From: Deltaproteobacteria bacterium
GTDB taxonomy: Bacteria > Desulfobacterota > Desulfobulbia > Desulfobulbales > Desulfocapsaceae
DNA: 64,000 nucleotides
Assembly (NCBI GenBank): GCA_026388715.1
Contig: JAPLJF010000010.1
Location: 62,001 to 126,000, forward strand
Direction of reading: 5' to 3'
Under the pieces are notes generated by a model, which was not told where the DNA came from, ran no database searches, and was given only the letters and a program-made list of their open reading frames with translations. Shown here piece after piece: positions 51,510-59,996 of the stretch; positions within the stretch are counted from its first letter, which is position 1; each line of letters opens with the position of its first letter. Position numbers and translations under genes: made by a program.

Positions 51510-54211
51510 TACAGCTTTTCGCCCTCGACCGCCAGGCCCTGCTCCAGCGGCTGAAAACCTCGGAAAACGGCCTGGGCCCCGACCAGGTGGCCCGACGGCT
51601 CAAGGAGTTTGGCCCCAACGAACTGGCAACCGCAGCGAAAAAAAACTATCTTCTTGCCTATCTGGGCCAGTACAGCAATTTTTTCGCCATTCTGCTGGAG
51701 GTGGCCGCTCTCCTCTCCTTTGTCGCTGATCATTATGCGCCGGACGAGGGCAGCGATATTCTGGGCTATGCCATCCTCGTCGCGGTGATCGTCAACGCCA
51801 CCTTTACCTTCTGGCAGGAATATCGGGCGGACAAGGCCATGGAGGAGCTGCTTAAGTTGATGCCCACCAAGGTTTCCCTGCGCCGGGATGGAAAGCTTGT
51901 TGCAACCACGGCCAGCGAGATCGTCCCCGGCGATATCATGCTTCTGGAAGAGGGGGACAAGGTGGCGGCGGACGGGATTCTCATCGAGGCAAACTCGCTC
52001 TATCTTAACCTCTCCTCCCTCACCGGCGAATCGGCACCCGTGGCCCGTGATCTTCTGTCGGGCGAGGCAAAACGTCCTTTGGATGCAAAAAATATGGTCT
52101 TTGCCGGGACCACCGTGCTTTCCGGCAGCGGGGTCGTTGTGGCCAGCGCCACGGCCAATGCCACAGAGTTCGGTAAGATCGCCAGTCTCACCAAAAACGT
52201 GCGTAAGGCCATCACCCCCATGCAGCGGGAGATCATCCACATCACTCGCATCCTCACGGTCATTGCCCTGCTCATGGGCTGCTTTTTTTTCGCCCTTGGC
52301 CTGTTCTCCGGTAAGGGGGTTGTGCTCGCCTCAACCTTTGCTATTGCTCTCATTGTCGCCAATGTGCCGGAAGGATTGCTGCCGACCATTGCCCTGTCGT
52401 TGTCTCTGGCCAGCCAGCGCATGGCCCGGCGCAATGCCCTGATCAAAAACCTCGACTCCGTGGAGACCCTGGGCAGTGTCACTGTCATCTGCACCGATAA
52501 AACCGGCACCCTGACCAGAAACGAGATGACCGTCAAGCTGCTCTGGCTTGCAGGCGGCGAGCAGGTCAGCATCTCAGGAGAAGGGTATCGCGAGCCGGGC
52601 GAATTCTCTTTTGACCGGCAGAATGAAAGCACTGAGAACCGCCTCGCCGTCCTGCTCACCGCCGGCCTCCTCAACTGCCGGGCCAGCATCGACGAGGAAG
52701 GGTTGCACGGCGACCCCACCGAACTGGCTCTGGTGGCCGCGGCCCGCAAAAAGGGGATTAAGGCCCCGGAGATGAAAAAGGTGCAGGAGTTCATCTTCAC
52801 CAGCGAGCGCAAGATGATGTCCAGTATCTTTCAGGAGGGAGATGAAACCTGGCTTTTTGCCAAAGGCGCGGTGGAGGCGCTATTGCCCAAATGCATTTTT
52901 AACCTGGCCGCTGATGACTCTGTGCAGCCCTTCACCGATGTGGCAAGGGAGGCAGTCCTTGCCAAAGCCAAGGAATTTGAGAGCCAGGCCCTGCGGGTGC
53001 TGGTGATCGCCCGTAACGACAAGGCGGACGAGGAAGGCCTGACCCTGCTGGGTCTTGCCGCCATTATGGATCTGCCGCGCCATGGCGTGTCCGAGGCGGT
53101 GGCAACCTGCAAGGCCGCGGGTATCCGGGCCATGATGATCACCGGCGACAATCCGCGCACCGCCGCCGCCATTGCCAGACAGATCGGCATGGACCATGAT
53201 CGGGTTATCACCGGCCTCGAGTTGGAAGACATGGGTGATGACCGGCTGGAAGAAATCCTTGCCAAAGAAACCGTGCTCTTTGCCCGCATGGCCAGCAGCC
53301 AGAAGCTGCGCATCGCCACGGCCCTCCAGAACGCAGGCGAGGTGGTGGCCATGACCGGCGACGGGGTCAACGATGCGCCCGCCCTCAAAAAGGCGGACAT
53401 CGGCATCGCCATGGGGGTCTCCGGATCCGAGGTCGCCAAGGAAGCGGCGGACATGGTGCTGCTCGATGACAACTTCTCCTCCATCGTCATCGCCATTGAG
53501 GAAGGCCGGACCGTCTATTTCAACGTCAAGAAATTCGTTACCTATATACTGTCCCACAATGCGCCGGAGCTCGTGCCTTATATCCTGCAGTTCTTTCTGA
53601 AGATCCCCCTGCCGCTTTCAGTGATCCAGATCATCTCCATCGATCTCGGCTCGGACATGCTCCCTGGTCTGGCGCTGGGCAGCGAAAGGCCGGAAAAGAA
53701 CATCATGAACCGGCCGCCGGTGAGCAGAAAAGAAAAAATCCTTGACCGGGAGGTTTTTCTGCGCGGCTATTTCTTTCTGGGGATTATCGAGGCAAGCGCG
53801 GCCATGACCGCTTTCCTCTCCTTTCTGCTCCTGCATGGCTGGCAATACGGCACCGTCACCTTGGCTGATCCGCTACTGCACCGGCAGGCCATGACCATGA
53901 CCCTGCTGGGCGTGGTTTCCTGCCAGATGTCCAATGGCTGGACTATGCGGAGTTGGGAATTTTCTATCTTCAGCCTCAGGATTTTTTCCAATCGTCTGAT
54001 GGTGGTAGCCACGGCGGTCAATCTGGTGTGGGTCTGGATCCTCCTCAATGTGGCGGCGGTGCAGAAGGTATTCCATACCGCCCATGTGCCGTTCGGCGAC
54101 CTCTGGATCCTGCTGCCCTTTCCGGTGGCGCTTTTTCTGAGCCATGAAGGGTACAAATGGCTACGCCGCCGCCGGAACAGCCAAAACACCCCCCAACCGG
54201 ATCACGTCTGA
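51506..54211 (+). CDS. P-type cation ATPase, Na,K-ATPase-like (type II)
   Basis: A 901-residue membrane pump. The actuator motif is LTGESAPVAR (about 170), the phosphorylation motif ICTDKTGTLTRNEM (Asp about 330), then TGDNPRTA and MTGDGVNDAPALKKADIG. The M4 sequence VANVPEGLLPTI and the following RMARRNALIKNLDSVETLG, together with the M5-M6 block FVTYILSHNAPELVPYIL and IDLGSDMLPGLALGSERPE, closely follow the Na,K-/H,K-ATPase pattern rather than the heavy-metal or Kdp types. About ten helices are expected; no beta subunit gene is present. It starts with a GTG overlapping the stress-protein stop. Likely an Na+, K+ or H+ pump; the ion is not settled by sequence alone. Confidence 0.88.
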   Translation: MIQLFALDRQALLQRLKTSENGLGPDQVARRLKEFGPNELATAAKKNYLLAYLGQYSNFFAILLEVAALLSFVADHYAPDEGSDILGYAILVAVIVNATFTFWQEYRADKAMEELLKLMPTKVSLRRDGKLVATTASEIVPGDIMLLEEGDKVAADGILIEANSLYLNLSSLTGESAPVARDLLSGEAKRPLDAKNMVFAGTTVLSGSGVVVASATANATEFGKIASLTKNVRKAITPMQREIIHITRILTVIALLMGCFFFALGLFSGKGVVLASTFAIALIVANVPEGLLPTIALSLSLASQRMARRNALIKNLDSVETLGSVTVICTDKTGTLTRNEMTVKLLWLAGGEQVSISGEGYREPGEFSFDRQNESTENRLAVLLTAGLLNCRASIDEEGLHGDPTELALVAAARKKGIKAPEMKKVQEFIFTSERKMMSSIFQEGDETWLFAKGAVEALLPKCIFNLAADDSVQPFTDVAREAVLAKAKEFESQALRVLVIARNDKADEEGLTLLGLAAIMDLPRHGVSEAVATCKAAGIRAMMITGDNPRTAAAIARQIGMDHDRVITGLELEDMGDDRLEEILAKETVLFARMASSQKLRIATALQNAGEVVAMTGDGVNDAPALKKADIGIAMGVSGSEVAKEAADMVLLDDNFSSIVIAIEEGRTVYFNVKKFVTYILSHNAPELVPYILQFFLKIPLPLSVIQIISIDLGSDMLPGLALGSERPEKNIMNRPPVSRKEKILDREVFLRGYFFLGIIEASAAMTAFLSFLLLHGWQYGTVTLADPLLHRQAMTMTLLGVVSCQMSNGWTMRSWEFSIFSLRIFSNRLMVVATAVNLVWVWILLNVAAVQKVFHTAHVPFGDLWILLPFPVALFLSHEGYKWLRRRRNSQNTPQPDHV

Positions 54212-54312
54212 ACAGATCTTAGGCGTCTACGCCATCAGGCCTTGCCTCTCTTTCTTCGGAAAGCCGGGAATGTCCTGTTTTTCTCCTGCAGAAATAGGAT
54301 GAAGAGGCGCCC

Positions 54313-57300
54313 TTAACTGGTAATTTTCTCTTTTTTGTCTTCAGCTTTCTTCTTCGGGGTACTGTCCCAGAGCATCGGCTCGCTTACGATGTTCCAACCC
54401 CATTTCAGCAGTCCGAGCAGGGTAAAAGAGATCCACAGGGCCCAGGCCAGCATCGCCAGTCTGTAGGCGAGCATGGGGATGGAGACCAGCCAGGCCTGCG
54501 GCAGATGTTGGCTGCTGATATCCTGATACCAGCGAAGGATCGTGCCGTTTGAGCCGTTACCGATAATATTCATATCGGGGTGTCCCAAGAGTCCCTGGCT
54601 GATTGCCCGGACAAGGGCCACCAGGGCCAGCACGGTCAGTGCCCCGAGGCCGGTCTGGATCAGATTAAAGGCGCTTCTTCCCCTGTCTGGTCGGATTATT
54701 TTCCGGAAATGCAAGGCGATGAGCCAGCCCACTACCAGCAGACAACCGAACAGATTGCTCATGCTCATACCGATGCCAAGCAGGAAAAGCTGATAAAAAC
54801 GCAGGGGGGTCAGGTTGGTTTTACTCAGAGCAAAGGCAACCAGCGCCACTACCAGCAGTACTGACCAGTATAAAAGAGCTGGTCCCAGTAAAGGCCCCCC
54901 TAGGAAAAGCGGCCACCTGTTTGGTGGCAGGGTCACATCAATGGCGGCATTGACACTGCCGGCGCCGAGATCAATCCGGGGTGTGGTATAGAAAATACCG
55001 AGGCCGGAAGGCTCGCGCCACTCAAGAGCAACTTCCTGTTTTCCCGGGGTTATCGGCAAAGAGATCTTTGCTCCATCCTGCCGGACCTGCTGTACCGTGC
55101 CGTTAATGGTGACCCGCTGCAGTTGCGCGGCCGCAGGCAGGGTGATGGTATGCTGGCCTCCCTGGCTGCTGCGGATTGACAGGTTCAGTTTGCTCTCGGT
55201 AGCCCGCCCGCCTGGACGCACTTGCAGTGTACTCTTGTCAATGGTGAGGGTCTGGCCGGCGATGCCTTCAGGGCGTGAGATCAGCAGCTTCACTTCGTCG
55301 CCGGGCCATGGGTGCCAGGTTGGATACCAGCGGGACCCCTGTTGATGCAGGATAACCGGAATCCCTGCCGTCTCCATGTGATAGATCGGGCTGACATCAA
55401 CCCGCCAGATTTCTGTCCATTGATCGGTATCCGCATGTTTGAGTATGAGCTGGTCGCTTTTTTCAAGGACAGACTCCCAGCGCAGTTCACTGCTCTCGGC
55501 ATCCAGGTTGACATTGGCCTGCCCGTCTTGTACCCGGATACCTTCGGTGACAATCGATTCCCCCGGCAGCAGCGGGATATTCAGGATGATTGCCGATCCT
55601 TTCGGGGTTGTCCGGCTGATCCTGGTCTCAACCTTCCAGGTCAGCCCGAGCAGCAGGGTGCGGTCGATGAGGACAAAGGGCGGCAGAATACCGGTATCCA
55701 GGACCTGAGTCGCATTGTCCTGCTTGTCAACTATCCGTTTGAACTGGAGTTGATTGTCGGCGATCCCCTTATTGATTCCCTCCACAATCCAGCCCTGGGT
55801 ATCGGTAACGATATGGTGAGGATGGAGGGGGAGCGGAAGTTGGAGGGTATTCTGCTGAGGGATCTTGCCTTGCATCTGGATCTGATGGCGGCCACCAGGC
55901 ACCAGGATCCAGAGTTGTTTCTCGCTTCTCAAAAGGCCGGACGCGGGTTTGTTATCAATGCGGATCTGTTGCGGCAGCCAGTGATCACCATTGCCAGGCA
56001 GGGGAACGGCCCCGTCAATCTGGCTGTCCACATGCATGGTCACGCCGAGGGTTTCCGGGCTCAAGGTAACGGTCATGTCGGTGATAGCGGCACAGTCTGG
56101 AAAGCAGTCCGCTTTTTCCAGGAGTCTGGCGCGGAGCTGTTCAAACATCTCGGGAGAAGGAATCTCGTCTGCCTGACAGGGGGCAGGGACAGCCAGAAAT
56201 CCTGATAATAAAAACAGGAGGGGGAGAAGAAAAGAGCTCTTCCAGGCTGGCAATGCCCATCCTTGGCCGCGCCGATAGGTGATATTCAACATTCCGAGGG
56301 CCAGCAGGGCCATCAGGAGAATACGCGTGAAAGCCAGTACCAGATTGATTTTTGGACCGATAAGGGTAAAGCTGATCTGCTGATCCCGCTGCACCGGTCC
56401 CGACCAGCTCATGGCAACCTGATTCCACTGCCAGGTTGGCAGTCCTGGTCCGGTCTGCTGAATCATTTTTGGATCATACTGCGGGACCTGGCTCTGATAG
56501 GGCAAACTGGCCACTGGCATGGCCAGACTGCCCTTTAACTTAGTTGTCGGTGCGACACCGCCCGTGGCGATCTCGGCAAGCTGCGACATCTTGTCTGCGG
56601 CTGAGTCCATGACCGCAGCGTTTCGGGCCAGGGCTTTCTCCGCCGGGGCCGGGGCTGGGGCCACAGCCTGTGGTTCTTGCCTTCGTTCGGTGAAAGCGCT
56701 CATAGACTGCCAGGGTTTTTCCAGTTGCGGGTAGATTCCCACCCGGAGCTGATTGATGGTAAAGGGGACGACAATGATGATCAGCATCAGGATGGTGATT
56801 GCCTGGTATCCCTTGATGATCTGCCTGAATTTCCCCGCCGGCAGGTAGCGCAAGAGCGCCACGCCCACCAGGATTGCCAGCCAGACCCATCGTGGCGCCC
56901 CTGATTCGTGATAGCTGAGCGTATAGGAGAGAAAGGCGATGATGGTTAAGGGTGGTCGGGCATAGAGTCTGGCCACGGCCAGGGTAAAGATGATGACCAG
57001 AAAAAAATCGAGCAGGGTCCAGCGGGCAATCCAGGTGTTGGCAATGGAATCGATACCGGTGGCATTCAATAATTTCCATCCCGGCGGCAGGTGGAGGGTG
57101 GCCTGAACTTTTTGAAAATCATGATCCCAGCCGGTTGCCGGCAGGGTGGAGATGGTGGAGATCTGGTGAGGATAGCTGCTGTCGGCCGTCAGTTGCAGCT
57201 GGCCTTCCCGTACTTCGATACCGGCCTTGCTACTGCCCGCTTTTTTGGTGATGAACTGCTCCCTGTTATTGACAACCACCCGGCCAAGCTCAAGAGGAGG

Positions 57301-58455
57301 AGTCATCTCCAGCCGCCAGTCATTATTCTTCTGGCCGCTGATCTTGTCCTGGATCGTGTAACCGGAGCCGTCAAAGCGCAGCCAGAGCTCGCGTTGCAGG
57401 CTTAACTGATCAGGAGAAGGCTGGGCGGCGCCGCGTCTGGTCTCCTTGAGCTGCATGGTTTCACCGGCAGGCAGCCGGTAAGCGGGAAAGCTCCGCCATT
57501 CTTCGGGCATGGAGGTCTGCGTGGGATCAAGAGCGGCAAGCCCGGTGATCTCGACGGTGCGCAGATCAGGATGCGCCTGGAAGGACAGGATTTCTTCCGT
57601 GGTCCAGAACGGGTCATCAGGCCGAGTCCAGCGATATGTTGCCAACGGACCAATCTGTCTGGTGATGAGTTTGATCGTCCATTGTCCGGGCCGGACCTGG
57701 ACCCGTATTCGACCATCTTGCTCAAGACGTGCCGGAAGATCGCTGTTCAAAGCAAGCGGGATGGTCTGTTCAGGAGCAAAGACCGGCCCCAGCACCATTT
57801 CCCTGGCAGCCCCGGCAATATCGAGCTTGAGTAATGTTACCATCTGGGCGGGAATCGTATCATCAAGAAGCCGAAAGGTTTGCAAGTTCAGGCTGTTTTC
57901 AATTTTTTCCGTCTGCGTTCTTGAGGTCTGCAGCCAGAGTCGGCTGTTACGGTCCAGATTGGGGAAATCGATCGGCCGCTCGTTTACAGCCAGCGACACA
58001 AGACCGGTATGGGGTGGGATGGTTACATATTCAGGAAGTGCTGACCACTGGAAGCGGCCGGTGATTTCATAGGCGCCGCTCTTCACTCGTATCTTAGGCA
58101 GGCCCTCCCTGTTCATGACCAAGGCCGCCTGCCCATTCACCTTGACATCTATGGGCCAATGTTCCGTATCCCCTGGCAGTTGTAACCAGCGTTCATACTG
58201 TACCAGCCATTGTTGCCGGAACGAGCCGGCCGGCTCGGTCACCTTGAGATCAAGCTGCGATGGCCAGTCACAATGCAGGACTGATGAGTCATTAAAAGAA
58301 GGTGGACAGAGCAGTTCTGCTTCATGACCATGGAGAACCCATTCAACCCAGGGGGTTAATGGCGAAGGGATCTTGGCGGGCTGTTCGGCGCGAGAAATAT
58401 CAGGGGAAAAACAGGTGAGAAGGAAGACGAACAGGATGCTGGCGCAGAAGTTCAT
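54313..58455 (-). CDS. Giant membrane protein with internal duplication, unknown function
   Basis: 1380 residues. Signal peptide (about 1-23). Copy 1 runs from about 25 to 570: a beta-rich extracytoplasmic part (LQLPGDTEHWPIDVKVNG at 91-108; ELWLRFDGSGYTIQDKI at 356-372) ending TLHLPPGW (453-460), then transmembrane helices (about 480-500, 505-515, 522-537, 553-570). A Pro/Ala-rich linker (590-640) and two helices (703-725, 741-757; the latter signal-like, ending PCQAD) follow. Copy 2 runs from about 763 to 1345 with the same order: VPLPGNGDHWLPQQIRIDN (817-835), LIDRTLLLGLTWKVETRI (929-946), DVTLPPNRW (1173-1181), then several helices. The tail is Lys-rich (1365-1380). I do not recognise the family. 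It is monocistronic and convergent with the ATPase gene. Confidence 0.8.
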   Translation of the reverse strand: MNFCASILFVFLLTCFSPDISRAEQPAKIPSPLTPWVEWVLHGHEAELLCPPSFNDSSVLHCDWPSQLDLKVTEPAGSFRQQWLVQYERWLQLPGDTEHWPIDVKVNGQAALVMNREGLPKIRVKSGAYEITGRFQWSALPEYVTIPPHTGLVSLAVNERPIDFPNLDRNSRLWLQTSRTQTEKIENSLNLQTFRLLDDTIPAQMVTLLKLDIAGAAREMVLGPVFAPEQTIPLALNSDLPARLEQDGRIRVQVRPGQWTIKLITRQIGPLATYRWTRPDDPFWTTEEILSFQAHPDLRTVEITGLAALDPTQTSMPEEWRSFPAYRLPAGETMQLKETRRGAAQPSPDQLSLQRELWLRFDGSGYTIQDKISGQKNNDWRLEMTPPLELGRVVVNNREQFITKKAGSSKAGIEVREGQLQLTADSSYPHQISTISTLPATGWDHDFQKVQATLHLPPGWKLLNATGIDSIANTWIARWTLLDFFLVIIFTLAVARLYARPPLTIIAFLSYTLSYHESGAPRWVWLAILVGVALLRYLPAGKFRQIIKGYQAITILMLIIIVVPFTINQLRVGIYPQLEKPWQSMSAFTERRQEPQAVAPAPAPAEKALARNAAVMDSAADKMSQLAEIATGGVAPTTKLKGSLAMPVASLPYQSQVPQYDPKMIQQTGPGLPTWQWNQVAMSWSGPVQRDQQISFTLIGPKINLVLAFTRILLMALLALGMLNITYRRGQGWALPAWKSSFLLPLLFLLSGFLAVPAPCQADEIPSPEMFEQLRARLLEKADCFPDCAAITDMTVTLSPETLGVTMHVDSQIDGAVPLPGNGDHWLPQQIRIDNKPASGLLRSEKQLWILVPGGRHQIQMQGKIPQQNTLQLPLPLHPHHIVTDTQGWIVEGINKGIADNQLQFKRIVDKQDNATQVLDTGILPPFVLIDRTLLLGLTWKVETRISRTTPKGSAIILNIPLLPGESIVTEGIRVQDGQANVNLDAESSELRWESVLEKSDQLILKHADTDQWTEIWRVDVSPIYHMETAGIPVILHQQGSRWYPTWHPWPGDEVKLLISRPEGIAGQTLTIDKSTLQVRPGGRATESKLNLSIRSSQGGQHTITLPAAAQLQRVTINGTVQQVRQDGAKISLPITPGKQEVALEWREPSGLGIFYTTPRIDLGAGSVNAAIDVTLPPNRWPLFLGGPLLGPALLYWSVLLVVALVAFALSKTNLTPLRFYQLFLLGIGMSMSNLFGCLLVVGWLIALHFRKIIRPDRGRSAFNLIQTGLGALTVLALVALVRAISQGLLGHPDMNIIGNGSNGTILRWYQDISSQHLPQAWLVSIPMLAYRLAMLAWALWISFTLLGLLKWGWNIVSEPMLWDSTPKKKAEDKKEKITS

Positions 58456-58624
58456 GGATTGTTTCTCCCGGAGATGATGGCATGCAGAGTAATACTTAGG
58501 AGCCGTTCCGGCCGTTTAGATGGTCATGTTATTTGTTTCCAGCGGCTTGATGAGTAATACGTTGAAAGCACTTCATTATCTACACAATCAAACTTTTTTG
58601 CAAGACACAACCTTTTTTTAAAAA

Positions 58625-58659
58625 AAAAGGGGAGATACCAAAACGGTATCTCCCCTTTT
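58625..58659 (-). terminator. Intrinsic terminator after dsrC
   Basis: A 15-bp stem (aaaaggggagatacc at 58625-58639, complement at 58645-58659) with a 5-nt loop is flanked by a long A-run on the plus strand, which is a T-run on the minus strand. It lies 28 bp after the dsrC stop. Confidence 0.85.
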
Positions 58660-58686
58660 AAGAGGCAAACAAATCAAACAGTTGAA

Positions 58687-59004
58687 TTATACGCAACCGG
58701 TTGGTTTTGGCAGGCCAGCCATTTTACAGGCTCCTTTGCCAGGGCCAGATGGGAACAACTCATAAATTCTTTTCAATGGGAAGCCAGTGGTCTTGGAAAG
58801 GATACGGACCATTGGGGCAATACCATTTTTCGTGTAGTATTCCTGAAGAGCTGTAATTACTTTAGTATGCTCTTCGGTCATCTCGCCAATACCCTCAACA
58901 CTCTTTACATAATCAACCCAATCTGGATTGAATGCTTTGGCGTTGAGCAGGAATCCATCTTCATCCACCTCAAAACTAGATCCTTTGTGTTCTAATGTAG
59001 GCAT
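58687..59004 (-). CDS. dsrC: DsrC, sulfur-trithiol carrier of dissimilatory sulfite reduction
   Basis: A 105-residue DsrC/TusE-family protein. Both C-terminal cysteines are present: Cys93 in GKGACKMAG and Cys104, second from the end, 11 residues apart. This marks true DsrC, which carries the sulfite-derived sulfur between DsrAB and the membrane complex DsrMKJOP. The family block FEVDEDGFLLNAKAFNPDWV (FEVDEDGFLL at about 11-20) and ELFPSGPGKG are also present. The start at 59004 follows an excellent AAGGAGGG; an in-frame upstream ATG is not used. It is strongly terminated and stands alone apart from cbiK upstream. It supports a sulfate-, sulfite- or sulfur-metabolising host. Confidence 0.95.
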   Translation of the reverse strand: MPTLEHKGSSFEVDEDGFLLNAKAFNPDWVDYVKSVEGIGEMTEEHTKVITALQEYYTKNGIAPMVRILSKTTGFPLKRIYELFPSGPGKGACKMAGLPKPTGCV

Positions 59005-59192
59005 GTTACCCTCCTTACAAAAATATTGTTTATTGGTTTGCACCGTTTCTGAAGCAAAAATTGATTTCGCTTTATTACTATAGGCTTTTTAGTTTGTCAA
59101 GTGAATGGGCAATCATTTTATGCGGTATCTTTTTTTCGTAATTTTTGGACTTTCCGGCTCTTTATACTGCTTTTGATATCCAGGTAATGAAA

Positions 59193-59996
59193 TTATTTTG
59201 TGACAACGGCGCATCCATTATTTTCAGGAATTGTCGCCAGGGCTTCTTCTATATGCCCGCAGAACATTTCACCGATGGCAGGCAACGTCCCGATTCCCTG
59301 TTGAATAATCTCCACACTGATATCTGCCGCCGAGAGCAGGCTCATCCAGGAATCGCCGTGCTCTCCAGCAAGATCCCGATGAAAATGCATGCCTGTTACG
59401 AGGAGCAGGGGAATGATGCAAACCTTTTTGTAGCCGGCAGCCCTAATGTCGGCGATAACCTCGACGCTTGACGGACATCCTTCTTCAATCACGCCAATAA
59501 AAATCCGCGGCCCAAATTGTCTGTGCATGAAATATTGCAGGGCTGGGTAGGCGCACCAGGCAGGATGATCTGTGCCATGTCCCACTAGAAGGATAGCCTG
59601 ATCAGGATGGGTGTTGATTAAAGGCGACAGGCCGGCGCAGAGGGCCAGATAATCTTGTGGTGAACTGAGCAGGGGCAGGCCGATGGAGGTCCGGAGGGGG
59701 CTTTGTCTCGTCTCTTCTACTAAACGGGTGAATTCATGGCCGCCAAGGAGATGGAGTGATTGCACGACTGCCCACGAATAATGCTGGCGATACAAGGTCT
59801 CCAGTATTTCATGAGGACTGGAAATCGTATTTTGTGGCTGTCCGGCACCCCTGTTTTTGACCATGCGTGATGACCAGGCCCAGAAAACCTCATGGTCAGG
59901 GAAACGATTCTTGATTTGGGCGTCCAGATGCTCATAACTGGCCAGGGCCTTTGCTGTGGTGCCAAAAGCGACGATGACAAGAGGGATGGGGCGCAT
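59193..59996 (-). CDS. cbiK: Sirohydrochlorin chelatase, CbiK type
   Basis: A 267-residue class II chelatase inserting metal into sirohydrochlorin. Motifs: IVAFGTTAKAL at the N-terminus (substrate loop), SLHLLGGHEF with the metal-ligand His, LLVGHGTDHPAWCAYPAL, VIEEGCPSS and the block PLLLVTGMHFHRDLAGEHGDSW with two His, cited as LLLVTGMHFHRDL and AGEHGDSW. No signal peptide, so it is the cytoplasmic form. It reads towards dsrC, 189 bp downstream. Siroheme is the cofactor of DsrAB, so an iron-inserting role for sulfite reduction is attractive; cobalt insertion for cobalamin is the other option. Both metals are used in this family. Confidence 0.85.
   Translation of the reverse strand: MRPIPLVIVAFGTTAKALASYEHLDAQIKNRFPDHEVFWAWSSRMVKNRGAGQPQNTISSPHEILETLYRQHYSWAVVQSLHLLGGHEFTRLVEETRQSPLRTSIGLPLLSSPQDYLALCAGLSPLINTHPDQAILLVGHGTDHPAWCAYPALQYFMHRQFGPRIFIGVIEEGCPSSVEVIADIRAAGYKKVCIIPLLLVTGMHFHRDLAGEHGDSWMSLLSAADISVEIIQQGIGTLPAIGEMFCGHIEEALATIPENNGCAVVTK

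Follow-up and report, generated by a model that had tools for sequence, protein, structure and literature searches.

What kind of protein is encoded on the reverse (-) strand at 54313..58455 of the window (the whole 64,000-nucleotide stretch of DNA analysed here), and what might it do in the cell envelope? An earlier note, made from the letters alone, described a 1380-residue membrane protein of two related halves that belonged to no recognised family. We found that the ORF is real and that its product, P0001, is strongly conserved. Relatives at 38 loci are 37-90% identical to it, the gene lies in a single ORF at 33 of these loci (L017, L027, L034 and L037 run off the end of their contigs, and the L031 gene is broken), and P0001's own genome yielded one match. 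In a 119-row alignment, composed of 116 distinct full-length ORFs, the query and two half genes with near-identical rows kept, 73 positions are at least 98% identical.

As the note had stated, no family could be assigned: searches of Pfam, NCBIfam, PADLOC and PDB sequences gave no credible match to P0001. A profile search of PDB chains returned 0 matches at E <=10, and four matches from a single-sequence search of the same chains (E 0.66-2.1) were taken as chance. So were several Pfam matches: an adenovirus E3 protein, which hit a membrane stretch in 3 of 16 members (best E 0.0034), a heparinase C-terminal domain in 4 of 16 (best E 0.11), and four more families in one member each. In P0001 the first two stay below the curated cut-off. 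An anti-phage defence gene was rejected, with 0 PADLOC families at E <=1. Judged by titles and the openings of abstracts, none of the publications listed by our literature searches is on the family. Large and strongly conserved as it is, this membrane protein has no family model in Pfam, NCBIfam or PADLOC.

We then compared the two halves by profile alignment (hhalign). With a profile built from the query plus the 38 loci, half aligned with half at a score of 64 (E 4.6e-7), whereas 20 column shuffles reached no more than 29.4 and the reversed profile 17.9; the 119-row profile gave 136.5 (E 4.3e-16, 410 columns), versus at most 28.4 in 100 shuffles. Residues 60-496 are paired with 786-1212, and 70 of the 410 pairs are identical in P0001. 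Single-sequence BLASTP of half against half produced no match better than E 0.18. These profile comparisons demonstrate that the two periplasmic arms are homologous and that a long beta arm is present twice by duplication. The claim that the halves are related, which the earlier note would have abandoned had they aligned no better than shuffles, is borne out for the arms. Three of the landmarks it had listed are also recovered in register: LPGDTEHW (92-101) pairs with LPGNGDHW (818-828), LPPGW (454-468) with LPPNRW (1174-1188), and C62, from the cysteine-containing start, with C788. The RELWL-type block was misplaced: 355-372 pairs with 1074-1094 and not with 929-946, which itself pairs with 192-209.

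The membrane blocks gave a different result. Compared alone (476-590 plus 661-735 against 1184-1372), they scored 14-15, and because this falls below the best shuffled control (22.7 in 30 shuffles, 26.2 in 100), their kinship is unsupported. Only the predicted order, four helices, a short beta hairpin and one helix, runs parallel in the models. The idea of one order repeated in both halves is therefore sustained as homology for the arms, whereas the membrane blocks are alike in order alone, with no detectable sequence homology.

The two-half layout itself is well supported. Each half opens with a leader helix and a cysteine pair, continues with an arm of beta-sandwich domains some 420-450 residues long, and ends with four predicted helices followed by a short beta hairpin and one final helix (all coordinates are on the (-) strand). 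P0001 begins with a signal-like helix (residues 1-23, 58387..58455), recognised by hydropathy and by a model helix at 2-15. The first periplasmic beta arm follows (residues 25-478, 57022..58383), identified by the model, by homology to the second arm and by Foldseek; both arms are presumed to be periplasmic, the first on the strength of its leader helix. Near its start, C50 and C62 (58270..58308), each a cysteine in 118 of the 118 rows with a letter there, could form a putative disulphide, in a low-confidence region of the model. The first membrane block (residues 481-575, 56731..57015) has four predicted helices in the model, versus three hydropathy stretches at the cut-off used. After a low-confidence linker (residues 585-671, 56443..56703; pLDDT <50), a short beta hairpin and the fifth helix of half one (residues 672-724, 56284..56442; model and conservation) contain a conserved LPxWxW...WSGPV.

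Half two is entered through an internal signal-like helix (residues 737-762, 56170..56247), which the earlier note had seen and which both hydropathy and the model contain. It leads into the second periplasmic beta arm (residues 765-1193, 54877..56163; model and Foldseek), where C784 and C788 (56092..56106), conserved in 113 of the 115 and 113 of the 114 rows that have a letter there, may form a second disulphide; the cysteine pair is near-invariant in both halves. The second membrane block of four predicted helices (residues 1194-1291, 54583..54876; model and hydropathy) is followed by a hairpin loop and the last helix (residues 1292-1358, 54382..54582; model and conservation), the loop carrying the motif PDMxIxGNGS...LRWYQD. 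The models contain about 11 predicted helices besides the leader, with a pTM of just 0.44-0.46.

How did the two-half form arise? The earlier note envisaged an ancient fusion of two tandem genes and suggested a search of relatives for a split form. The duplication of the arm stands, but no tandem two-gene ancestor was found. In one genome, from the family of Thioploca, the halves are two intact genes, which lie on separate contigs, and the second has its own signal-like start. Such a genome is what one would expect if the two-gene form were ancestral and P0001 a later fusion; it is, however, a single genome, and both half trees contradict that order of events. In the midpoint-rooted N-half tree the split sequence is surrounded by fused ones from the same family, in a clade of 18 tips with support 0.93, and in the midpoint-rooted C-half tree it again falls within fused ones (0.97 for a 21-tip clade, only 0.08 at the innermost node). 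Since the split halves nest inside fused relatives, the split form looks, from these trees, like a later fission, and an ancestral two-gene form is very improbable. Duplication within one gene and duplication followed by fusion are not distinguishable from the present data. The split form also suggests that no covalent link is needed for the halves to associate.

Other multi-piece or partial matches were left out of the split-gene count. Those in G585, G700, G698 and G042 reach a contig end or stop within 30 bases of one; overlapping pieces in G630 (two different frames) and in G426 and G002 (adjoining pieces) look like frameshifts; and several more are two hits within one open frame. In G785 the two pieces lie 1.08 kb apart; this match was left out, as were those in G577, G754, G781, G783 and G800.

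The family is patchily distributed. The gene was present in 29 of 395 sampled genomes of the window's phylum, in 53 of 369 from the class of a Gammaproteobacteria genome, and on one Azoarcus plasmid, and certain families have it frequently (that of Thioploca, in 32 of 40 genomes). Within Nitrospirota, one genome of eight has a match, to the N-terminal part only; because this match starts at base 1 of its contig, it is possibly a binning error. No conserved operon or neighbour emerged among the 79 loci compared, some of which are the same record twice and in 76 of which the P0001 family was recognised. The commonest flanking cluster occurs at 14 of the 79, at scattered positions and on both strands, while a cbiK-type neighbour is confined by the clustering to eight, all close relatives (two being re-fetched records). 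Upstream of the P0001 gene, between it and dsrC, lies a terminator-like 16-pair stem with a T run (58625..58659, (-)); the region 58300-59200 contains two such sites, versus a shuffle mean of 1.2 (sd 1.2), which is chance level, though the stem itself is long. No RNA family reached its gathering score in 54000-59200.

Foldseek searches with the predicted models, 50 rows per half, gave the same best fold match for both halves, searched separately: ribophorin I/Ost1, at probability 1.00. Clear homology of the halves to different known folds would have refuted the earlier note; their best fold match is shared. For half one the best row was Ost1 (E 3.9e-7), with LTA4 hydrolase at E 2.0e-4; for half two it was ribophorin I (E 5.8e-10), followed by the integrin alpha ectodomain (3fcs_A, E 1.4e-6, rmsd 15.9 A) and M1 peptidase (E 2.2e-5). 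The N-terminal saddle-like beta domain of M1 aminopeptidases, non-catalytic in its known setting, was matched at the domain level with probability 1.00, on predicted models only. These matches mostly span 156-193 columns at rmsd 4-11 A (best E 2.0e-4 for half one, 2.2e-5 for half two); further M1-family rows of half one cover more of the chain, at rmsd 17-32 A. Unlike an M1 enzyme, P0001 has a membrane block in place of a peptidase domain, and no HEXXH zinc site occurs in its 1380 residues.

Over the whole chain, the TM-scores to ribophorin I/Ost1 stay low (0.14-0.29, at rmsd 15-24 A), so that, in these models, the single-domain folds are credible and the domain arrangement is not. Integrin alpha is a eukaryotic surface receptor, has no sequence match to P0001 among PDB chains and is absent from the 50 rows of half one; we take its match as a likeness of beta-sandwich strings. 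Since its rows rank between Ost1 and M1 in half two, the ribophorin match may itself be partly generic. A weaker match of half two, 8imx_T (E 3e-5, probability 0.92), is to a chain that we take to be PIG-T, a eukaryotic protein that is part of a larger complex, GPI transamidase, with no detected sequence similarity to P0001. According to published work on Ost1 (PMC7226087), that subunit has a single helix and its domains of this type are non-catalytic in their setting. P0001, by contrast, has two arms and many helices, is bacterial, and shows no sequence similarity to Ost1 when its profile is run against PDB chains.

What, then, might P0001 do? Our preferred reading, to which we give a probability of roughly 0.35, is that P0001 stands alone in the inner membrane as a scaffold whose two arms bind and hold a periplasmic client. 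In its favour we count the arm homology, the best fold match shared by both halves, the near-invariant cysteine pairs, the lack of HEXXH, a gene with no conserved neighbour and a terminator-like site upstream of it, and the natural split nested in fused relatives; against it, the low pTM and whole-chain TM-scores, the integrin rows and the undetected homology of the membrane blocks. Each arm would be a string of ribophorin I/M1-N-domain-type domains, the halves would pack together in the inner membrane to form a pseudo-dimer, and the two arms would keep a polypeptide, a lipoprotein or a glycan-bearing chain near the membrane surface, where the conserved loops sit. If the arms hold a client at the membrane, P0001 would serve envelope assembly as a scaffold or holdase in its own right. 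What the client might be is guesswork, and confidence in the functional reading is low. Conserved polar residues in or beside the membrane (D483, H516/E517, R571, Q1267 and D1312) count against a scaffold, as they would also fit an enzyme or transporter: D483 (115 of 118 rows), Q1267 (118 of 118) and D1312 (117 of 117) are near-invariant and sit in predicted helices or membrane-edge loops. Together with the parallel predicted order of the two bundles, they favour a rival only slightly less probable than the scaffold: the work would be done in the membrane, by an enzyme or a lipid or solute transporter of two pseudo-symmetric bundles, with arms that only regulate it or bind substrate. However, Pfam gave no match to a transporter or membrane enzyme, there is no conserved operon, and the 50 Foldseek rows per half include no transporter; besides subunits of oligosaccharyltransferase and GPI-transamidase and M1 peptidases (membrane-anchored, their matched domains soluble), the one membrane-enzyme row is weak (ammonia monooxygenase, half one, E 0.014, probability 0.63).

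The shared best fold match raises the question of whether P0001 serves a bacterial oligosaccharyltransferase as an accessory subunit, as ribophorin I does in eukaryotes. STT3 (PF02516) was not found in its own genome, which is 94% complete; among 40 genomes with the gene and 40 without, it occurs in 4 of each. This distribution already largely refutes the link and led us to reject it; the lack of a profile match to PDB chains and the many helices rather than one also count against the idea, and we give it almost no credence. Exosortase/PEP-CTERM sorting systems have a similarly patchy ecology, and PF09721 is found in 21 of 40 carriers versus 13 of 40 non-carriers, all of the class of G395. Nevertheless, no match was found in 19 of the 40 carriers, and the difference, weak in itself, is uncorrected for kinship and genome size, making a role in that system quite unlikely. 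In general layout P0001 also resembles a doubled CreD, an inner-membrane protein with a signal anchor, a periplasmic beta domain and C-terminal helices, as seen in CreD sequences; CreD of Stenotrophomonas has reportedly been studied in connection with 'envelope integrity'. The P0001 family has no PF06123 match, nor was PF06123 found in P0001's own genome. Profile comparison with 6 CreD sequences and then with 15 gave no score beyond shuffle level: the 15 scored at most 29.5, about the peak reached by the shuffles of the half-versus-half test (28.4 and 29.4, which are not CreD shuffles). Kinship with CreD is not supported, and the chance that it is real is slim.

The natural fission in the family of Thioploca is a convenient means of testing whether the two halves pair, and, if the ribophorin-type arms are real, P0001 would provide a bacterial setting for learning what such arms bind. 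Some syntrophy hypotheses place sulfate reducers at eukaryotic origins. It is a distant prospect that the tandem M1-N-like arms of ribophorin I, and perhaps of PIG-T, in the membrane machines of the eukaryotic ER derive from this family of envelope proteins in sulfur-cycle bacteria, or from a close common ancestor; if they did, the P0001 family would be a bacterial forerunner of the client-holding subunits of the ER, in a sulfate-reducer lineage.

P0001 is encoded by a 1380-residue ORF on the minus strand (54313-58455), for which we found no credible family in Pfam, NCBIfam, PADLOC or sequence searches of PDB chains. Scanning one genome per species identified 38 loci, where relatives range from 37% to 90% identity and the closest come from uncultured Desulfobulbaceae and one Desulfocapsaceae MAG; the window's own genome contains one match. 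The gene is a single ORF at 33 of these loci, is cut by a contig end at four and is broken at one, in a Desulfobulbaceae MAG (L031:344-4714), where a stop separates two ORFs (query residues 7-525 and 547-1367) that represent either a pseudogene or a sequencing error.

The earlier note had proposed that P0001 consists of two related halves with four shared landmarks, derived from an ancient fusion of tandem genes. BLASTP of one half against the other as single sequences found nothing (best E 0.18), and thus the likeness seen by eye could be proved only with a profile. When an alignment of the 38 loci plus the query was used, residues 25-600 matched 765-1380 with a score of 64 (E 4.6e-7), compared with at most 29.4 in 20 column shuffles and 17.9 for a reversed profile. 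A 119-row profile gave a score of 136.5 (E 4.3e-16; 100 shuffles, at most 28.4) and aligned residues 60-496 with 786-1212, 70 of 410 pairs being identical. These data bear out the relatedness of the halves for their periplasmic arms. The same profile alignment upheld the landmark pairs C62/C788, LPGDTEHW/LPGNGDHW and LPPGW/LPPNRW, and showed the pairing of the RELWL blocks to be wrong. Compared alone by profile, the membrane blocks scored below the best shuffles.

AlphaFold2 models built separately for residues 1-765 (mean pLDDT 75.3, pTM 0.46) and 655-1380 (mean pLDDT 76.4, pTM 0.44) both predicted a long all-beta arm followed by four helices, a short beta hairpin and a final helix. In Foldseek searches of the PDB, the oligosaccharyltransferase subunit Ost1/ribophorin I was the top match for half one (E 3.9e-7) and half two (E 5.8e-10); the homology of the arms makes these two results partly dependent on each other. 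Ost1 was followed directly by M1 peptidase N-domains for half one (E 2.0e-4), and by integrin alpha chains (E 1.4e-6) ahead of M1 peptidases (E 2.2e-5) for half two, which also matched a GPI transamidase chain (E 3e-5) that we take to be PIG-T. Because whole-chain TM-scores in the Ost1 rows were low (0.14-0.29), these matches bear on domain fold only. The M1 zinc motif HEXXH is absent from the P0001 sequence.

Across the 119 aligned rows, with near-identical rows retained, 73 positions showed at least 98% identity. Both C50 and C62 are cysteine in all 118 rows having a letter; for C784 the count is 113 of 115 and for C788 it is 113 of 114. Model confidence near both pairs is low or middling.

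A natural two-gene form occurs in G430, a draft genome from the family of the Thioploca genome. Its N half (L124:1443-3584, plus strand) and C half (L123:853-2910, minus strand) are intact ORFs of 713 and 685 residues on different contigs, each clear of contig ends, and the C half has a signal-like N terminus of its own. Translations around the two ends of the halves contained no remnant of the missing partner. An ORF of 170 residues, which has no match in Pfam, ends 18 bases before the C-half gene. In the N-half tree, G430 nested among fused sequences of the Thioploca-genome family (an 18-tip clade with support 0.93, or 0.97 once its sister L070 is included), and it did so again in the C-half tree (0.97 for 21 tips, 0.80 for 19 tips and 0.08 at the innermost node). 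Since both halves nest among fused sequences, fission is the most likely origin of this form; as it comes from one draft genome, a misassembly is a less probable alternative.

The family profile, A3, matched 29 of 395 genomes in the window's phylum and 53 of 369 in the class of the L028 genome (Gammaproteobacteria by title). Within the family to which the Thioploca genome of L029 belongs it matched 32 of 40 genomes, among relatives of genome G764 33 of 61, and in the phylum that contains a 'Nitrospirae' MAG one of eight; these sets share a few genomes. One family gene came from the plasmid collection: it is carried by pAZKH of Azoarcus sp. KH32C, where its annotation reads 'hypothetical protein'. 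Irregular copies were also seen. Genome G783 (contigs C166 and C278) has six matches, among them short fragments of the protein's start (14-67) and of its end (1280-1363) beside larger pieces, which look like copies duplicated and then decayed, and G475 and G777 each have a short additional C-terminal match. In G785 (C11:798029-803355), a gap of about 1.08 kb splits the gene in two at residue ~485, perhaps because of an insertion; both pieces match profile positions 478-494.

We compared neighbourhoods at 79 loci, some of them one record fetched twice, and recognised the family in 76. No neighbour was conserved among these loci beyond close relatives: the commonest flanking cluster, which looks like an ABC-type ATPase by eye, occurred at 14 loci in scattered positions and orientations. 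In the window, dsrC (PF04358; 58687-59043) and an adjoining cbiK-type cobalt chelatase gene (PF06180; 59193-59996) lie upstream of the P0001 gene, on the same minus strand. A terminator-like hairpin of 16 pairs plus a T run (58625-58659) stands just downstream of dsrC, before the P0001 gene, in a region where such sites occur at chance level. The cbiK-type gene is found in the same position in close relatives, at 8 of the 79 loci, of which two are re-fetched records.

The Ost1 match raised the possibility of an oligosaccharyltransferase role. In co-occurrence tests on 80 hand-picked genomes each, with 40 carriers and 40 non-carriers from the same searches, the catalytic subunit STT3 was found in 4/40 carriers (20 of the 53 from the L028-class search and 20 of the 29 from the window-phylum search) and 4/40 non-carriers. 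We did not find STT3 in the window's own genome; these results therefore make such a role unlikely. Exosortase was present in 21/40 carriers (drawn from the 53 of the L028-class search) and 13/40 non-carriers, a weak difference that ignores kinship. Kinship of P0001 with CreD was not supported.

The anatomy of P0001 is well supported: a duplicated arm, with two halves per chain, forming a single-gene unit for which a two-gene form is possible. Polar residues that lie within the membrane or close to it are conserved (D483, H516/E517, R571, Q1267 and D1312). A membrane-embedded enzyme or transporter is a serious rival to the reading that we favour: from its fold, its solitude and its architecture, we infer that P0001 may act at the inner membrane as a scaffold that binds clients.
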